DNA from: Winogradskyella immobilis
GTDB taxonomy: Bacteria > Bacteroidota > Bacteroidia > Flavobacteriales > Flavobacteriaceae
NCBI RefSeq assembly: GCF_021887715.1
Contig: NZ_JAIQXX010000002.1
Span: 124,001-188,000, forward strand
DNA: 64,000 bases
Direction of reading: 5' to 3'
In this document: positions 17,220-20,776 of the stretch, piece by piece
Position numbering within the stretch: the stretch's first letter is position 1
Layout: every line of letters begins with the position of its first letter
Translations under genes and position numbers: made by a program
Notes under the pieces: generated by a model
The model's database searches: none
Told to the model about the DNA's origin: nothing
What the model saw: only the letters and a program-made list of their open reading frames with translations

Positions 17220-17267
17220 CAGAGTAATTAATAAGAAGTCATTTGGAATCAGGCTTCAATAAGTAGT

Positions 17268-17297
17268 GCTCTGCCAGATACAGGAAGCTGGCAGAGC
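17268..17297 (+). ncRNA. 10-bp leader hairpin of the array, alternative partner of the interrupted tRNA
   Basis: GCTCTGCCAG and CTGGCAGAGC are exact complements around a 10-nt loop. The left arm with the next base (CTCTGCCAGA) is also complementary over 9 nt to TCTGGCAGA at 17431-17439, the 3' anticodon strand of the interrupted tRNA. Two exclusive folds are therefore possible. Confidence 0.6.
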
Positions 17298-17327
17298 TTA
17301 ATAAAAGTTCTTTAAAATATTAAAACT

Positions 17328-17468
17328 GGAAGCATTGAGCAATTGGTTGGCTCACCAGACTGAAATGCGTTTTTACGCATTCAGCGAATCCTATTTAATA
17401 AAATAGAAATCGTTGAGCTAAAATCTCGTTTCTGGCAGAACATGTAGGTTCGAGTCCTACTGCTTCCA
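17328..17468 (+). tRNA. Interrupted tRNA-like gene with a ~65-nt insert in the anticodon loop
   Basis: Acceptor GGAAGCA (17328-17334) pairs with TGCTTCC (17461-17467), discriminator A17468. D-arm: GAGC/GCTC with loop AATTGGTTG. Anticodon stem CCAGA (17355-17359)/TCTGG (17431-17435). T-arm: GTAGG-TTCGAGT-CCTAC (17444-17460). The 5' half of the anticodon loop reads CTGAAA, compatible with anticodon GAA (Phe). Between the anticodon strands is an insert of ~65 nt (17366-17430) with hairpins ATGCGT-TTTT-ACGCAT and CTATTT-AATA-AAATAG. The variable region is 8 nt, longer than usual. No CCA is encoded. It lacks group I/II intron size or signatures. I read it as a tRNA whose anticodon loop must be cut and ligated, or as a tRNA mimic. 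Confidence 0.75.
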
Positions 17469-17470
17469 CA

Positions 17471-17560
17471 TCAAGCAAGTCTTGTTAAGTGTTTCGGTAT
17501 AGCGCTATTGTATAAATCCTTACGGTTTCGTATAAGGTTTTTATATTCAACTTGACTTGA
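17471..17560 (+). ncRNA. Three-way-junction RNA element
   Basis: TCAAGCAAGT (17471-17480) pairs with ACTTG-A-CTTGA (17550-17560, one bulged A). Inside lie a self-complementary ATAGCGCTAT (17499-17508) and a hairpin CCTTACG-GTTT-CG-TA-TAAGG within TATAAA/TTTATA (17511-17545). There is no T-arm or D-arm, so it is not a tRNA. It sits between the interrupted and the first permuted tRNA. Confidence 0.55.
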
Positions 17561-17567
17561 AGGCTTC

Positions 17568-17589
17568 GGTTATTGGCCAAATAATAACC
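17568..17589 (+). ncRNA. Hairpin just 5' of the permuted tRNA's 3' half
   Basis: GGTTATT (17568-17574) pairs with AATAACC (17583-17589) around an 8-nt loop. It ends 4 nt before the anticodon 3' strand of the permuted tRNA and could mark the cleavage site. Confidence 0.6.
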
Positions 17590-17593
17590 ACCG

Positions 17594-17662
17594 TCTATCG
17601 GTCGTGGGTTCGAATCCCACTTCTGCAAAAGCAGAATAGTTCAGTCTGGTTAGAACAATAGA
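17594..17662 (+). tRNA. Circularly permuted tRNA-like gene 1 (break in the anticodon loop)
   Basis: Order in DNA: anticodon 3' strand TCTAT (17594-17598), variable loop CGGTC, T-arm GTGGG-TTCGAAT-CCCAC (17604-17620), acceptor 3' strand TTCTGC (17621-17626), discriminator A, linker AAA, acceptor 5' strand GCAGAA (17631-17636), T8-A9, D-stem GTTC, loop AGTCTGGTTA, GAAC (17653-17656), A26, anticodon 5' strand ATAGA (17658-17662), then TTCAAA. Every tRNA helix forms: acceptor 6 bp (the seventh would be A-A), D 4, anticodon 5, T 5, with canonical A14, G18G19, A21 and TTCGAAT. The body resembles tRNA-Asp. Joining the two anticodon ends would give a circle that end-processing at the AAA linker would open into a tRNA. 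The anticodon cannot be assigned. Confidence 0.78.
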
Positions 17663-17669
17663 TTCAAAT

Positions 17670-18047: not shown

Positions 18048-18166
18048 ATGGTTTTTCTTTCACTTTGTTTTAATTAAGAATAGTCATTCTCTTAAAGAGA
18101 ATTCTATTATAAATGTTTAACCGTTCTGATATAAAAAGAAAACATCAGAACTAAAATTTAGAAATC

Positions 18167-19267
18167 ATGAACAGAGTAAGAATTCATGCAGGAATGGTAG
18201 GTTTAGTGTTTAAAAACGGAAATTATACACGTGTAATTACTGAAGGAAAGCATTGGATAAACTTTAGAGAACGTGTTATTAAATACAGCTTATCTCAAGC
18301 ATTTAACGCGCCAAAAGCATTAGAGATCTTACTTAAAGATCAGGCTTTGGCAGCTATGTTAACAGTTATCGATGTAAAAGATAACGAGATTGTTTTGGTA
18401 TATGAAAACAACAACTTTAAGCAGGTGTTAACTGCTGGTCGTTATACGTACTGGAATAGCTTGATCAACTATAGATTTGTAACTGTAGATTTAAGCAAAA
18501 TCGAAATTACAGAGAGCATTGAAAAAGCAATCTACAACAAGCCTGAATTGCGCCAATACATCAGAGTATTTGAGGTAACTGCTTACGAAAAAGCGATTAT
18601 GATTGTAAACGATAAGTTTGAAAAAACTTTAGAGCATGGTACGTATCATTTCTGGAGAAATGACCAAACCATTAAAATCGCAAAAGCCGATTTACGTCAA
18701 TTACAATTAGAAATTGCTGGTCAAGAATTGTTAACCAAAGACAAAGCAACCGTTCGTATTAACTTTTACGCGCAATATAAAGTTACTGATATTGAAATTG
18801 CTTTAATGCGCAACAAAGATTACGAGAAGCAATTGTATATTATCTTACAATTGGCATTAAGAGCATTTGTTGGTGCTTATACTTTGGACGAATTGTTAGA
18901 GCAAAAGGAAACAATTGCAAATGCTGTTTTACAAGATGTAAAAACACAAACTAGCAAATTGGGTGTAAACATATTACATACAGGTATTAGAGACGTTATT
19001 TTACCAGGTGATATGAAAGGTATCATGAACCAAGTATTAATTGCTCATAAAAAAGCGCAAGCTAATGTGGTGACAAGACGAGAAGAAACAGCATCTACAC
19101 GTAGCTTGTTAAATACCGCAAAATTAATGGAAGACAACAGCATGTTGTTTAAATTAAAAGAGATGGAATATGTTGAGAAAATCGCTGATAAGATTGGTGA
19201 GATTACAGTTGCTGGAAACGGAAATGTGATTGAACAATTAAAGGATATTTTCTCGGTGAATAAGTAG
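18167..19267 (+). CDS. Slipin / SPFH (band 7) domain protein without membrane anchor
   Basis: A 366-residue SPFH protein. The typical N-terminal hydrophobic anchor of slipins is absent; the protein instead starts with three repeats of one beta-unit: GLVFKNGNYTRVITEGKHW (12-30), VLVYENNNFKQVLTAGRY (76-93) and MIVNDKFEKTLEHGTYHFW (145-163). The third leads into the standard SPFH core (LTKDKATVRINFYAQYKV) and a helical C-terminus. Band-7 proteins form ring-like scaffolds and are known neighbours of RtcB in several bacteria. Here it lies downstream of the RNA array, probably on the same transcript, and ends at a terminator before the rtcB promoter. Confidence 0.88.
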   Translation: MNRVRIHAGMVGLVFKNGNYTRVITEGKHWINFRERVIKYSLSQAFNAPKALEILLKDQALAAMLTVIDVKDNEIVLVYENNNFKQVLTAGRYTYWNSLINYRFVTVDLSKIEITESIEKAIYNKPELRQYIRVFEVTAYEKAIMIVNDKFEKTLEHGTYHFWRNDQTIKIAKADLRQLQLEIAGQELLTKDKATVRINFYAQYKVTDIEIALMRNKDYEKQLYIILQLALRAFVGAYTLDELLEQKETIANAVLQDVKTQTSKLGVNILHTGIRDVILPGDMKGIMNQVLIAHKKAQANVVTRREETASTRSLLNTAKLMEDNSMLFKLKEMEYVEKIADKIGEITVAGNGNVIEQLKDIFSVNK

Positions 19268-19271
19268 AACT

Positions 19272-19307
19272 AACCTGTAAGTTGAAAAAATACTTGCAGG
19301 TTTTTTT
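19272..19307 (+). terminator. Terminator between slipin and rtcB
   Basis: AACCTGTAAGT and ACTTGCAGGTT form an 11-bp stem (one mismatch) around a 9-nt loop, followed by seven T's. It separates the array-slipin unit from rtcB, which has its own operator. Confidence 0.88.
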
Positions 19308-19320
19308 ACAAAAAAATTAC

Positions 19321-19339
19321 TACGCAAAAACATTGCGTA
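19321..19339. promoter_or_regulatory. Operator palindrome 3 (rtcB promoter)
   Basis: TACGCAA-AAACA-TTGCGTA, perfect 7-bp arms, 5-nt spacer identical to operator 2. A -7-like box follows 9 nt downstream. Confidence 0.87.
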
Positions 19340-19348
19340 ATACTCTAC

Positions 19349-19356
19349 AATATTTG
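19349..19356 (+). promoter_or_regulatory. -7-like box of rtcB
   Basis: AATATTTG, the same octamer and spacing from the operator as at the RNA array promoter; the rtcB ATG is 26 nt downstream. Confidence 0.6.
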
Positions 19357-19381
19357 TAGTGTAATTAAGAAGTTAGAAACT

Positions 19382-20776
19382 ATGAAAACAAAAATCACAG
19401 GAAACCATTTATTAGAATTGGGTTTTAAGCAAGGTAAATGGATGAAAGAAGCTATTACTTATATCAATGACAATGCATTAGAAGGTGAGGCTTTAACGAG
19501 TTACTTAAAGCAATTTAAGTTACCTAATCCAATTGCTTTACACGATAAACCATTAGCGTTTTCTATAAACATCAAGGCAGAGAATGAAGAGGAAAAAGAC
19601 AATGTAGCTAAAGTCATTAACTCTATGCAAACCTTAATGAAAACACCGACATTGGTAGATGGTGCTATTATGCCAGATGCATGCCCAGCTGGTCCTGACG
19701 GAACGATTCCTGTTGGTGGTGTTGCGGTTGCTAAAAACGCTATTCATCCAGGAATGCATAGTGCAGATATTTGCTGTTCGGTGATGTTAACTGATTTTGG
19801 TAAAGTTGAACCTAAAGCCATTTTAGATGCCGCACATGCCAATACACATTTTGGTCCTGGTGGACGTGATAGAGATTCTCAATTTAGATTTCCAAAAGAA
19901 TTGTTAGAGGCTTTTGAAGCCAACTACTTTTTAAATGATGGTAATATGATTCAAATTGCACGATCACATTTAGGAACTCAAGGAGATGGTAATCATTTCT
20001 TATTTGTTGGAACCTCTAAAAAAACAGGTAACACAATGATGGTAACACATCATGGATCACGAGGTCCTGGTGCACGTTTGTACACAAAAGGAATGAAAAT
20101 CGCTGAACGCTTTAGAAAAGAATTATCACCAGACACAAAAAAACAAAATGCTTGGATTCCTTTTGAAACTGAAGAAGGGCAATCGTATTGGAATGCTTTG
20201 CAAGTGATAAGAAACTGGACAAAAACCAATCACGAAGTATTGCATAATTCTGTTGCTGAAACTTTAGAAATTGACATTGAAAACCGATACTGGAACGAAC
20301 ATAACTTTGTCTTTAAAGATGGTGATTTATTTTACCATGCTAAAGGAGCAACTCCATTAGATGCTAAGTTTATGCCAGATATTACAGGCCCAAGATTAAT
20401 TCCATTAAACATGAGCGAACCTGTTTTAATTGTTGAAGGTGCTACAACTAAAACCAATTTAGGTTTTGCACCACATGGAGCTGGTAGAAATGTAAGTAGA
20501 ACTCAGCATAGAAAAAGTAAAACTGGTACGACTATGCAAATCTTTAAAGAAGAAACACGAGGTATTGATGCACGATTTTTCTCAAAAAAAATTGATATTA
20601 CAGAATTACCATCTGCTTATAAAAATGCAAAAGCTGTGAGAGCTCAAATGGACGAATTTGGTTTAGGAACTGTTATTGATGAAGTGATGCCTTATGGTTG
20701 TATTATGGCGGGAGATTGGCAGAAAAACGCTCCATGGAAAATTCGCAGACAGCAGGACAAAAGAAGTAAGCGATAA
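19382..20776 (+). CDS. rtcB: RNA-splicing ligase RtcB
   Basis: RtcB joins RNA 2',3'-cyclic-phosphate or 3'-phosphate ends to 5'-OH ends using GTP and Mn2+. The 464-residue protein has the metal/GTP motifs: D99 and C101 in [40 protein letters not shown], and the guanylylated histidine H365 in APHGAGR. Length is close to that of archaeal and longer bacterial forms. It has its own operator and -7 box, and is followed by the convergent small Cys-protein gene. No RtcA, Archease or PrfH gene is in the window. In bacteria, which lack the tRNA-splicing endonuclease, RtcB is generally viewed as an RNA-repair enzyme. Confidence 0.97.

Follow-up and report, generated by a model that had tools for sequence, protein, structure and literature searches.

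Positions 17470 to approximately 17925 represent, as judged by sequence comparison, one structured non-coding RNA of about 450 nt. It is conserved, carries two or three rearranged tRNA look-alikes and is apparently previously undescribed in bacteria. Its gene is strictly linked to a slipin gene, which codes for a membrane-scaffold protein. The RNA and the slipin may act as a bait or scaffold in a tRNA-damage response, and the RNA would then not represent permuted tRNA genes of the algal and archaeal type; this reading is given a probability of about 0.5. The features discussed are listed below; the window is the whole 64,000 nt stretch analyzed.

14403..16127, minus strand: WYL-domain regulator with a fused PhyH-like dioxygenase domain, a candidate for control of the locus (Pfam; PADLOC)
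16637..17176, plus strand: TPR protein (Pfam TPR; tblastn map)
17183..17233, plus strand: promoter/operator-like box CTGCGCAAAAACATTGCGCAATAG..TAAAATATTTGCAGAGTAATTAATA, preceding the tRNA/RNA unit (sequence, relatives)
17222..17325, plus strand: conserved leader E1 with hairpin GCTCTGCCA/TGGCAGAGC at 17268-17297 (identity among relatives)
17328..17467, plus strand: accessory tRNA-Tyr-like gene with interrupted anticodon loop, the D-T element (relatives)
17364..17420, plus strand: insert X, a 57-bp mobile mini-element in the anticodon loop (50 distinct contexts)
17470..17561, plus strand: 5' domain of the structured RNA (RNAalifold; model R1; stem pairing)
17563..17590, plus strand: H-type pseudoknot, GGC/GCC with GGTTATT/AATAACC (RNAalifold; second stem by eye)
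17594..17662, plus strand: unit A, a tRNA body opened at the anticodon, YrlA-like topology (RF02553 match; covariation)
17663..17748, plus strand: unit B, a tRNA opened at the variable arm (parsed sequence; covariation)
17749..17765, plus strand: extra anticodon-like hairpin ATGGA-CTTTAAA-TCCAT (homologue count versus shuffles)
17766..17925, plus strand: 3' domain of the RNA, conserved and with an approximate 3' end (16-sequence alignment, RNAalifold of 520 nt)
18167..19267, plus strand: slipin-like SPFH/Band-7 protein (Pfam Band_7, 104.7 bits; linkage; co-occurrence)
19320..19369, plus strand: another copy of the promoter/operator-like box, preceding rtcB (sequence; second exact genome match)
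19382..20776, plus strand: RtcB RNA ligase family protein (Pfam RtcB, 129.4 bits)

Structure and covariation of the RNA

One D-insert-T element and two T-acceptor-D elements are present at 17328–17748. T-loop motifs are at 17447, 17607 and 17673, and the acceptor pairs are GGAAGCA (17328) with TGCTTCC (17461), TTCTGC (17621) with GCAGAA (17631) and CAAGATC (17687) with GGTCTTG (17698). The first-pass annotation had described three T-arms and three acceptor stems in the order D-insert-T, T-D, T-D with no ordinary tRNA. All are found where it placed them, and neither the tRNA search nor Rfam at gathering score calls any of the three elements a tRNA in the window; ARAGORN with introns allowed reads the first as tRNA-Phe(GAA) with an intron. 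The order stands, but the layout needs a correction: both T-D units are parts of the one RNA that begins at 17470, and the D-T element, located just 5' of it, is an accessory tRNA gene of its own.

Read from 5' to 3', the RNA starts with the 5' domain, which is followed by the pseudoknot. Next come two tRNA-like parts, first a body that is open at the anticodon and then a full tRNA whose opening is at the variable arm, and after them an additional anticodon-like hairpin. The 5' domain is strongly conserved in homologues; its inner stem is 93.9% paired compared with 70.1% when re-dealt (49 distinct), and its outer stem 92.2% compared with 85.8% (18 distinct). RNAalifold finds changes on both sides of the GGC/GCC helix of the pseudoknot; the second stem is a by-eye reading of the sequences. 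In the 520-nt RNAalifold structure of 16 sequences the 5' TCAAG pairs with a 3' CTTGA, while in that of 32 homologues, with the 3' part left out, TCAAG pairs inside the 5' domain instead.

Unit A has the order stem TCTAT/ATAGA, T arm, acceptor 3' strand, linker, acceptor 5' strand, D arm. It has no anticodon loop, so that re-ordering does not give a complete cloverleaf. Unit B consists of T arm, acceptor, D arm and an intact anticodon arm, CTGTA-TTTCAGT-TACAG (17725-17741), and is closed by TTCAAA/TTTGAA. The extra hairpin is found in 57 of 114 homologues (shuffles: mean 4.5, maximum 11).

The permuted helices are real and are not due to chance. In unit A, 91.8% of acceptor-strand positions are paired (67 distinct combinations), compared with 50.2% (sd 2.3) when re-dealt among species (maximum 57.5 in 2000 shuffles). 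Those of the last unit are 91.5% paired over 51 combinations, compared with 46.9% (sd 2.8, maximum 56.5). The anchors of this test are independent of pairing, and the 196 of 272 T arms taken are those with a D-arm motif found. A strict parser, with at least 6 perfect pairs directly after the T arm, finds an acceptor-plus-D unit after 178 T arms (5.4 when shuffled); a lenient one finds it after 256 of 308 (mean 40 with the downstream 100 nt shuffled). The RNAalifold structure of 32 homologues has 60 pairs, and 38 of these show at least one change on both sides. The comparison of homologous loci for compensatory changes, proposed in the first-pass annotation as a check of the permuted order, shows the helices kept by compensatory change, with pairing far above the re-dealt level.

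The last unit has the arrangement of a circularly permuted gene, with the 3' half first and a full cloverleaf on re-ordering. ARAGORN calls a tRNA in all 94 re-ordered last units that have an anticodon arm (from 114 in total), but the test is lenient because it also calls a tRNA in 48 of 93 units made of halves re-dealt between species. U33 is present in 87 of the 94 anticodon loops, with 20 different triplets among those 87; UUA (5) and UCA (7) would read stop codons, although the loop register is possibly off by one in some Leu-like arms. Compared with the ordinary same-anticodon tRNA of its locus, the arm is identical at 6–11 of 17 positions (11 cases); it is no copy, which weakens sequence-specific mimicry. 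The linker after the acceptor starts with ACCA in the second unit of L046, L047, L050, L055 and L061.

Linked genes and the common box

Of the fetched regions, all 31 that contain the RNA have the slipin gene downstream of it, compared with 0 of 9 that lack the RNA. The gene is also there in 79 of 79 contig-database loci with enough flank and after all 15 model hits, which include three repeats of the window or earlier loci. Presence and absence agree in 30 of 30 genomes (both present in 7, both absent in 23). The slipin gene is always on the strand of the RNA, and the distance between the motif and the slipin match is 446-990 nt. In the window, the gap between the estimated end of the RNA and the start of the slipin gene is about 240 nt. 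RNA and slipin may bind each other. The role of slipins in bacteria is poorly understood, and they gain here a concrete candidate RNA partner.

RtcB was not found in 11 of the 44 RNA-bearing genomes searched (7/19 and 4/25), 9 of the 11 being at least 94% complete, and all 11 retain both RNA and slipin. RtcB is often a neighbour and apparently co-regulated, but it is dispensable. The earlier proposal that RtcB closes these RNAs is not supported as a general mechanism; in unit A there is also no anticodon loop that could be restored, and in the last unit some anticodons would be stop-codon readers.

The promoter/operator-like box precedes E1 in the window and in 15 of the 17 regions L031-L047 (exceptions L034 and L037). 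The 3' half of the box has two exact matches in the genome, the two copies at this locus (17183 and 19320). A box is before rtcB in eight RNA-bearing regions (L031, L032, L037, L038, L041, L043, L045, L047) and in L068; the pattern used for this missed the window's own rtcB copy. One box, identical in kind, is present before the tRNA array and before rtcB, and this gives substance to the link with RtcB made in the first-pass annotation. E1 is 81-89% identical where found, with a lower value of 73% in L068. At L062, L064 and L066, which lack the RNA, E1 is the nearest element upstream of rtcB.

Pfam confirms the WYL, Band-7/SPFH and RtcB genes. The WYL protein scores 44.3 (WYL), 38.6 (PhyH) and 26.9 bits (WCX) with Pfam and 79.7 bits with PADLOC WYL. 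It may be the regulator of the locus, as suggested by its position alone. In L031, the sole region with the box upstream of the WYL gene, the box points away from that gene. The TPR protein adjoins the array or the RNA in most fetched regions of the tblastn map.

An intact tRNA-Tyr(GTA) is at or near the place of the D-T element in eight relatives (L035, L036, L037, L040, L041, L044, L045, L046); the gene is interrupted in the window, L031-L034 and L042. The genome has another tRNA-Tyr elsewhere and 34 ordinary tRNA genes. When insert X is removed in its 50 distinct contexts, ARAGORN calls a tRNA across the junction in 20 and none in 30; 17 of the 20 are on the same strand and 3, with odd anticodons, on the opposite strand. 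Insert X is, on a by-eye reading, also found outside tRNAs and, in these three cases, on the opposite strand of a tRNA, which speaks for a mobile DNA element rather than a spliced intron. The mini-element accounts for what had been described as an interrupted tRNA. Accessory arrays upstream of the RNA, beyond the ordinary tRNA set, are found in relatives, with about 20 genes in L046 and 21 in L047; in the window a single interrupted gene is left of the array. ARAGORN finds at least one upstream tRNA in 47 of 75 other loci and none in 28.

Related RNAs and regulons

The T arm - acceptor - D arm order closed by a helix is that of the tRNA-like domain of YrlA (RF02553), and the earlier statement that no described bacterial system is like this one was too strong. 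RF02553 matches unit A with 38.6 bits (E 9.5e-7, model 23-88 of 114) and, with E<=0.01, one unit of the RNA at 6 of 8 further loci; scores are 31-45 bits, below the curated gathering score of 69. The RNA differs from YrlA in its length of about 450 nt, the 5' domain, the pseudoknot, the two or three units with at least one complete anticodon arm, and the slipin partner gene. Ro60/Rsr (TROVE) was detected in none of 30 RNA-bearing genomes, and among 14 control genomes in Deinobacterium alone. The tmRNA model matches at 17521-17621 (19.2 bits, E 1.5e-5; gathering score 47), but the score is far below gathering and all 374 model positions are squeezed into 101 nt; in 8 homologous loci the tmRNA model has no match at E<=0.01.

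YrlA is described in RNA-repair operons with RtcB in some bacteria (excerpts of PMC7790460, PMC8394870). In Salmonella its gene is within the rtcBA RNA-repair operon, which is induced on tRNA cutting, and a competitive-inhibitor role is suggested (excerpts of PMC7790460). The Salmonella rsr-yrlBA-rtcBA operon shares with this locus a tRNA-mimic RNA with RtcB, but slipin, tRNA array and WYL are present here instead; RtcR, RtcA and Rsr are absent among the seven ORFs scanned at the locus. In Anabaena PCC 7120, the repressor TrcR acts on the trn operon with its 26 tRNAs, on rtcB and on a slipin gene (excerpts of PMC10272220). Accessory tRNA genes, rtcB and a slipin gene are thus under one stress-released repressor there, but at separate places, and the excerpts mention no tRNA-mimic RNA; the terms WYL, Y RNA and tRNA-like are absent from the text of that paper. 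The reversal of tRNA halves around a short linker is shared with permuted tRNA genes of algae and one archaeon, whose tRNAs are functional and are thought to mature via the splicing endonuclease at a bulge-helix-bulge, followed by ligation (excerpts of PMC3978253). Here, in contrast, RtcB-less genomes keep the units, which are embedded in a larger RNA. The tmRNA, including its two-piece form, is likewise a permuted bacterial gene with a tRNA-like part (excerpts of PMC3978253).

Proposed function and alternatives

In the proposed bait or scaffold role, a regulator, probably the WYL protein, would release the common box upon tRNA damage, which would be the signal. The accessory array would provide replacement tRNAs, and RtcB, where present, would rejoin cut tRNAs. 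The RNA-slipin unit would draw tRNA-binding enzymes, foremost anticodon nucleases as its putative ligand, to a membrane complex; unit A would be a Y-RNA-like tRNA body, and one or more full mimics would present anticodon arms. This reading agrees with the alternative of sensors or decoys already named in the first-pass annotation. Weighed for this reading were the covariation of both units and the 5' domain, the slipin linkage, the arrays, the common box, the retained anticodon arms, the YrlA-like topology and the Salmonella YrlA and Anabaena TrcR parallels. Weighed against it were the compatibility of the slipin linkage with a cis-regulatory leader, the dissimilarity of the arm to same-anticodon tRNAs, the loci without upstream tRNA, the single interrupted gene in the window, the L031 box orientation and the report of Hughes et al. 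that Salmonella YrlA is uncleaved by the nuclease studied (excerpts of PMC7790460).

That the RNA is a cis-acting 5' leader of the slipin gene, e.g., one that senses tRNA-processing or tRNA-cleaving enzymes by their cutting of the mimic, is rather unlikely. The constant strand, the distance of 446-990 nt and the co-occurrence would fit it, but there is the gap of about 240 nt, the possible pairing of 3' domain and 5' end would suit a self-contained RNA, and two or three elaborate tRNA mimics exceed, in our judgement, the needs of a leader. Slightly less likely again is a Y-RNA-like adaptor, with the tRNA bodies as binding sites for PNPase or a different tRNA-binding enzyme and the slipin assembly in the place of Rsr (Ro60), together forming a membrane-bound RNA-decay machine. 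The YrlA tRNA-like domain is reported to bind PNPase while the stem holds Rsr (excerpts of PMC8394870), the units are YrlA-like and the co-occurrence is as strict as expected of a protein-RNA pair. However, without Ro60 in any of the 30 RNA-bearing genomes, the slipin would be tied to the Rsr role by analogy alone, and the varied anticodon arms are left unexplained.

Permuted tRNA genes, with units excised, the anticodon or variable break joined by RtcB or another ligase and linkers trimmed to give functional tRNAs, are improbable. The permuted order with intact pairing, the ARAGORN calls, the ACCA linkers and the nearby, apparently co-regulated RtcB speak for them. Against them stand the genomes without RtcB, unit A without an anticodon loop, the stop-reading triplets, the fixed places of the units within one larger folded RNA, the 34 ordinary tRNA genes and the leniency of the ARAGORN test. 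The view that the RNA consists of decaying, functionless remnants of a tRNA array is hardly credible: the neighbouring tRNA-Tyr with its mobile insert and the array of one gene are suggestive, and decay may apply to that tRNA-Tyr, but for the RNA it is contradicted by covariation of the acceptor strands of both units far above chance, and by the conserved 5' domain and strict slipin linkage.

An extension of the bait or scaffold reading, put forward tentatively, is a new class of RNP with permuted, nick-tolerant mimics, whose changeable anticodon loops would bait or sense anticodon nucleases while slipin holds the RNA, the array replaces tRNAs and RtcB repairs them. The acceptor linker connects the two halves of each mimic, so that both would stay attached after cleavage in the anticodon loop and the cut could be re-sealed. 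The small set of tRNA mimics (Y RNA, tmRNA) gains a large family that shows strong covariation, has a strict protein partner and occurs in genomes without detected Ro60. Permuted full tRNAs are kept by selection in bacteria with RtcB not obligatory, so that the benefit of permutation becomes a testable question. The locus with the RNA often seems built for surviving tRNA damage.

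Architecture and covariation of the RNA

The tRNA-like pieces named in the first-pass annotation are present in the window sequence as described. Its further statement, that no ordinary tRNA is found here, agrees with the tRNA gene search and with Rfam at gathering values, but ARAGORN with introns allowed reads the first element as an interrupted tRNA-Phe(GAA). The locus contains the following features.

14403–16127, minus strand: WYL gene, a regulator fused to a PhyH-like domain
17222–17325: leader E1, with a strong hairpin, which in the window precedes the tRNA/RNA unit
17328–17467: accessory tRNA-Tyr-like gene
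17364–17420: insert X, within the anticodon loop of that gene
17470 to about 17925: the RNA (5' domain, pseudoknot, unit A, unit B, extra hairpin, 3' domain)
17594–17662: unit A, a tRNA body opened at the anticodon
17663–17748: unit B, the last unit
18167–19267: slipin-like SPFH gene
19382–20776: rtcB

A permissive Rfam scan of positions 17180–18166 gives YrlA, a bacterial Y RNA, as the top match (17596–17663, 38.6 bits, E 9.5e-7), so that the T-acceptor-D arrangement is one already known from an RNA module. The match spans model positions 23–88 of 114 and its score in the window is under the gathering value of 69. Unit A is built like YrlA, but two defining YrlA features are missing, i.e., the Rfam gathering score and the Rsr/Ro60 protein, and the RNA is not filed as YrlA for this reason. 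TROVE/Ro60 was found in none of 30 RNA-bearing genomes searched. A tmRNA match at 17521–17621 (19.2 bits, gathering value 47, E 1.5e-5) was set aside in that it compresses the full 374-position model into 101 nt; moreover, eight homologous loci have no tmRNA match at E ≤ 0.01.

Two T-arm units are found in each of 32 parsed homologues, and three in locus L069; this parse leaves the second-unit acceptor of L034, L051 and L060 unresolved and misreads some pairs in L049 and L054. For acceptor strands taken from motif-only anchors, 91.8% of positions are paired in unit A and 91.5% in the last unit, compared with 50.2% and 46.9% when strands are dealt among species, with sequences treated as independent. 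Several Watson-Crick pair types are present at every acceptor position of both units. RNAalifold predicts 60 pairs, 38 of which have changed on both sides. In unit A these pairs include the acceptor, the D arm and the closing helix, and in unit B the anticodon arm; the T arms of both units, the first pseudoknot helix and the 5' domain are covered as well. The compensatory changes that the first-pass annotation had proposed to look for in homologous loci are present. Among the matches listed, an acceptor plus D arm follows 256 of 308 T arms with a lenient parser (mean of 40 in shuffles), and a strict form finds 178 T arms with such a unit compared to 5.4 in shuffles.

In the 5' domain, the outer stem has only a small excess of pairing (92.2% vs 85.8%, control maximum 91.1). 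A 4-bp hairpin at positions 19–38 is not clearly above its control (87.5% vs 82.8%, maximum 89.3), and the closing stem of unit A is 72% paired in its best register, a figure that comes without a control. From an alignment of 16 sequences over 520 nt, the 3' domain appears to extend to about 17925, and a helix may form between 5' TCAAG and 3' CTTGA; in an RNAalifold run without the 3' part, TCAAG pairs inside the 5' domain instead. A 72-aa open reading frame at 17704–17922 lies mostly within the RNA, has no family match and is taken as a chance occurrence.

Unit B corresponds to a complete tRNA whose opening is at the variable arm. Among the matches listed, a recognizable anticodon arm is present in 94 of 114 last units. 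When these are re-ordered ARAGORN calls a tRNA in 94/94, against 9 of the 94 segments in native order; the test is lenient, since halves dealt among species are still called in 48/93. U33 is found in 87 of the 94 loops, and these 87 carry 20 different triplets, the commonest being UUU (22) and CAU (11), with UCA in seven and UUA in five. The last-unit anticodon arm was not found to be a copy of a particular tRNA in the 11 of 94 loci that were usable, i.e., those that also have a called ordinary tRNA with this anticodon; 6–11 of 17 positions are identical. A second anticodon-like hairpin follows the last unit in 57 of 114 segments among the matches listed, vs a mean of 4.5 in shuffles. The search required U33 and a purine at position 37 and left positions 32 and 38 free; C32 is nevertheless present in 53 and A38 in 54 of the 57 hairpins.

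Three permuted units are seen in the RNA of L087 and L090 (both Aquimarina), L179, L182, L256 and L263. In Kordia algicida a lone T-acceptor-D unit (L082:6020–6105, YrlA match of 39.5 bits) lies approximately 4.5 kb from the main RNA.

Distribution of the RNA and the adjacent slipin gene

Window DNA 17222–17780 has matches in 44 of 149 genomes including its own, 37 of them from the same genus (its own and 36 others). Genes and tRNAs were mapped in 40 regions fetched from relatives. The element from 17470 onward is present in 31 of these, all 31 with the slipin gene after it, and the nine regions without the RNA have no slipin match. Ordinary tRNA arrays are situated upstream in some relatives, e.g., 20 genes plus a tRNA-Tyr in L046 and 21 genes in L047.

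A 22-nt pattern drawn solely from the 5' domain, and independent of the units, finds at least 117 stretches in the genome-contig collection. By the genus names in the 80 titles listed, these are mostly from Flavobacteriaceae and Weeksellaceae, with a few Saprospiraceae and Chitinophagales. The 147 segments gathered, which include the matches listed, reduce to 139 after eight duplicates over the first 300 nt are dropped. With the lenient parser, and among the matches listed, at least one T-acceptor-D unit is present in 131 of the 139 and at least two in 114. The eight segments without a unit are L076, L096, L105, L119, L149, L151, L160 and L184; the first five are non-Bacteroidota records and are taken as chance matches, as is L184, the sequence of which appears unrelated. 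Four pattern matches are in viral contigs, and these are accompanied by neither a tRNA-like unit nor a slipin match.

With a covariance model built on the 93-nt 5' domain, the RNA is detected in at least 7 of 395 genomes in a class-wide sample and at least 14 of 395 in a phylum-wide sample, own genome included; stricter filters were used here and weak matches were lost, so that the counts are lower bounds. Of the 15 distinct loci from these searches, three are either the window itself or already in the sets above. Units are displayed for ten of the 15, and all ten have at least one. Slipin is present in 15/15, including L260 and L261, which score more weakly and belong to other families.

Among the matches listed, all 79 genome-contig loci with enough flank have slipin after the RNA and in the same orientation, at 446–990 nt from motif to slipin match, and an ARAGORN tRNA is upstream of the RNA in 47 of 75. 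In 30 genomes picked so as to include RNA-negative ones, the RNA and slipin (E ≤ 1e-20) are both present in seven and both absent in 23.

RtcB, the upstream box and a possible function

The first-pass annotation suggested that RtcB closes the permuted RNAs at the anticodon or variable break. A general dependence on RtcB is not supported: it is absent from 11 of 44 RNA-bearing genomes (7/19 and 4/25), and nine of the 11 are at least 94% complete. RtcB is present in all five RNA-negative genomes (G073, G017, G001, G038 and G086), a biased count in that these surfaced through leader E1 beside rtcB. Among the matches listed, it is within 4 kb downstream of the RNA in 4 of 55 cases, an underestimate of linkage because the window's RtcB was the sole query and one direction was searched. 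Outside the genus, RtcB lies at most about 12 kb from the RNA in 6 of 14 RNA-bearing genomes (G248, G490, G477, G394, G419 and G795). Linkage is thus recurrent, within the genus and beyond it. Two RtcB genes of different subfamilies, some as two matched pieces, are present in G248, G341, G394, G799, G133, G147 and G063.

A box, CTACGCAAAAACATTGCGCAATAG..TAAAATATTTGCAGAGTAATTAA, precedes leader E1 in the window and in 15 of the 17 regions L031–L047, and precedes rtcB in eight of these regions and in L068. The two copies in the window are at 17183–17233 and 19320–19369. One is also situated upstream of the WYL gene in L031, where it is oriented away from that gene. The 3' half of the box has exactly two perfect matches in the own genome, before the array and before rtcB; a short box pattern has two exact matches, one with one mismatch and five with two (reversed control, three with two or fewer). 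By its position, the WYL protein is a candidate to act on the box. The WYL match covers only approximately the first 340 residues in 8 of 18 WYL-matching fetched regions (53–55% identity), and these shorter homologues may be without the PhyH-like fusion. Leader E1 is the element next upstream of rtcB in the RNA-less loci L062, L064 and L066.

The favored reading is that the RNA, as a tRNA mimic, would work together with slipin in a tRNA-damage response. Parallels that support it come from three systems. In Salmonella, YrlA is kept with RtcBA, and the authors propose that its tRNA-like domain may competitively inhibit the nuclease studied; they also report that this nuclease does not cut YrlA (PMC7790460). 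In Anabaena, TrcR represses rtcB and a slipin gene together with an operon of 26 tRNAs, and translation-blocking antibiotics lift the repression (PMC10272220). A further parallel is found in phage tRNAs, which can escape defence systems that cut tRNAs (PMC11555353, PMC12409363). The number of permuted tRNA genes given in a review is 34, and their sources are six algae and a single archaeon (PMC3978253). No description of the RNA was found in the literature searched by title and abstract opening; Y RNA and RNA-repair papers could hold a prior mention.

Insert X in tRNA loops

Insert X, 57 bp in the window tRNA-Tyr, is one of a group of related mini-elements, about 45–57 bp long and with the form AATGC..GCATTC..TGAG.TA. 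They insert into the loops of hairpins, and a frequent site is the T loop of an accessory tRNA gene. Members include the window copy and those in L033, L038, L039, L042, L048, L051, L054, L059, L062 and L063, among others. In T loops X lies directly after TTCGA or a near variant. A same-genus pattern search has a match in 28 of 68 genomes, with none in the own genome.

Eight relatives have an intact tRNA-Tyr(GTA) at the position of the window element or close to it, and the gene is interrupted in the window and five relatives. An RNA intron would be consistent with the location of X in anticodon and T loops and with its sharing across genera: the tRNA-Tyr anticodon loop contains X in the window, five same-genus relatives (L031–L034 and L042), one Lacinutrix locus (L141) and one Oceanihabitans locus (L146). 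However, X is found outside tRNAs as well. Removal of X was examined in 50 distinct contexts, which come from the same-genus search and from loci retrieved for other purposes and so give no genome-wide rate; it yields an ARAGORN tRNA that spans the junction in 20 (17 on the same strand, three on the opposite) and none in 30. In L063, L081 and L185, as read by eye from the flanks, X lies in the anticodon arm of a tRNA encoded on the other strand; ARAGORN calls at these and some other loci are weak, with odd anticodons or "tRNA-???". The intron was set aside because of these two properties, and X is read from its sequence contexts as a mobile DNA element that prefers tRNA loops. The first hairpin of X in the cross-genus tRNA-Tyr copies has changed on both sides (AATGCG/CGCATT, AATGCC/GGCATT and AATGCT/AGCATT), and for this reason X in tRNA-Tyr may represent more than plain decay.
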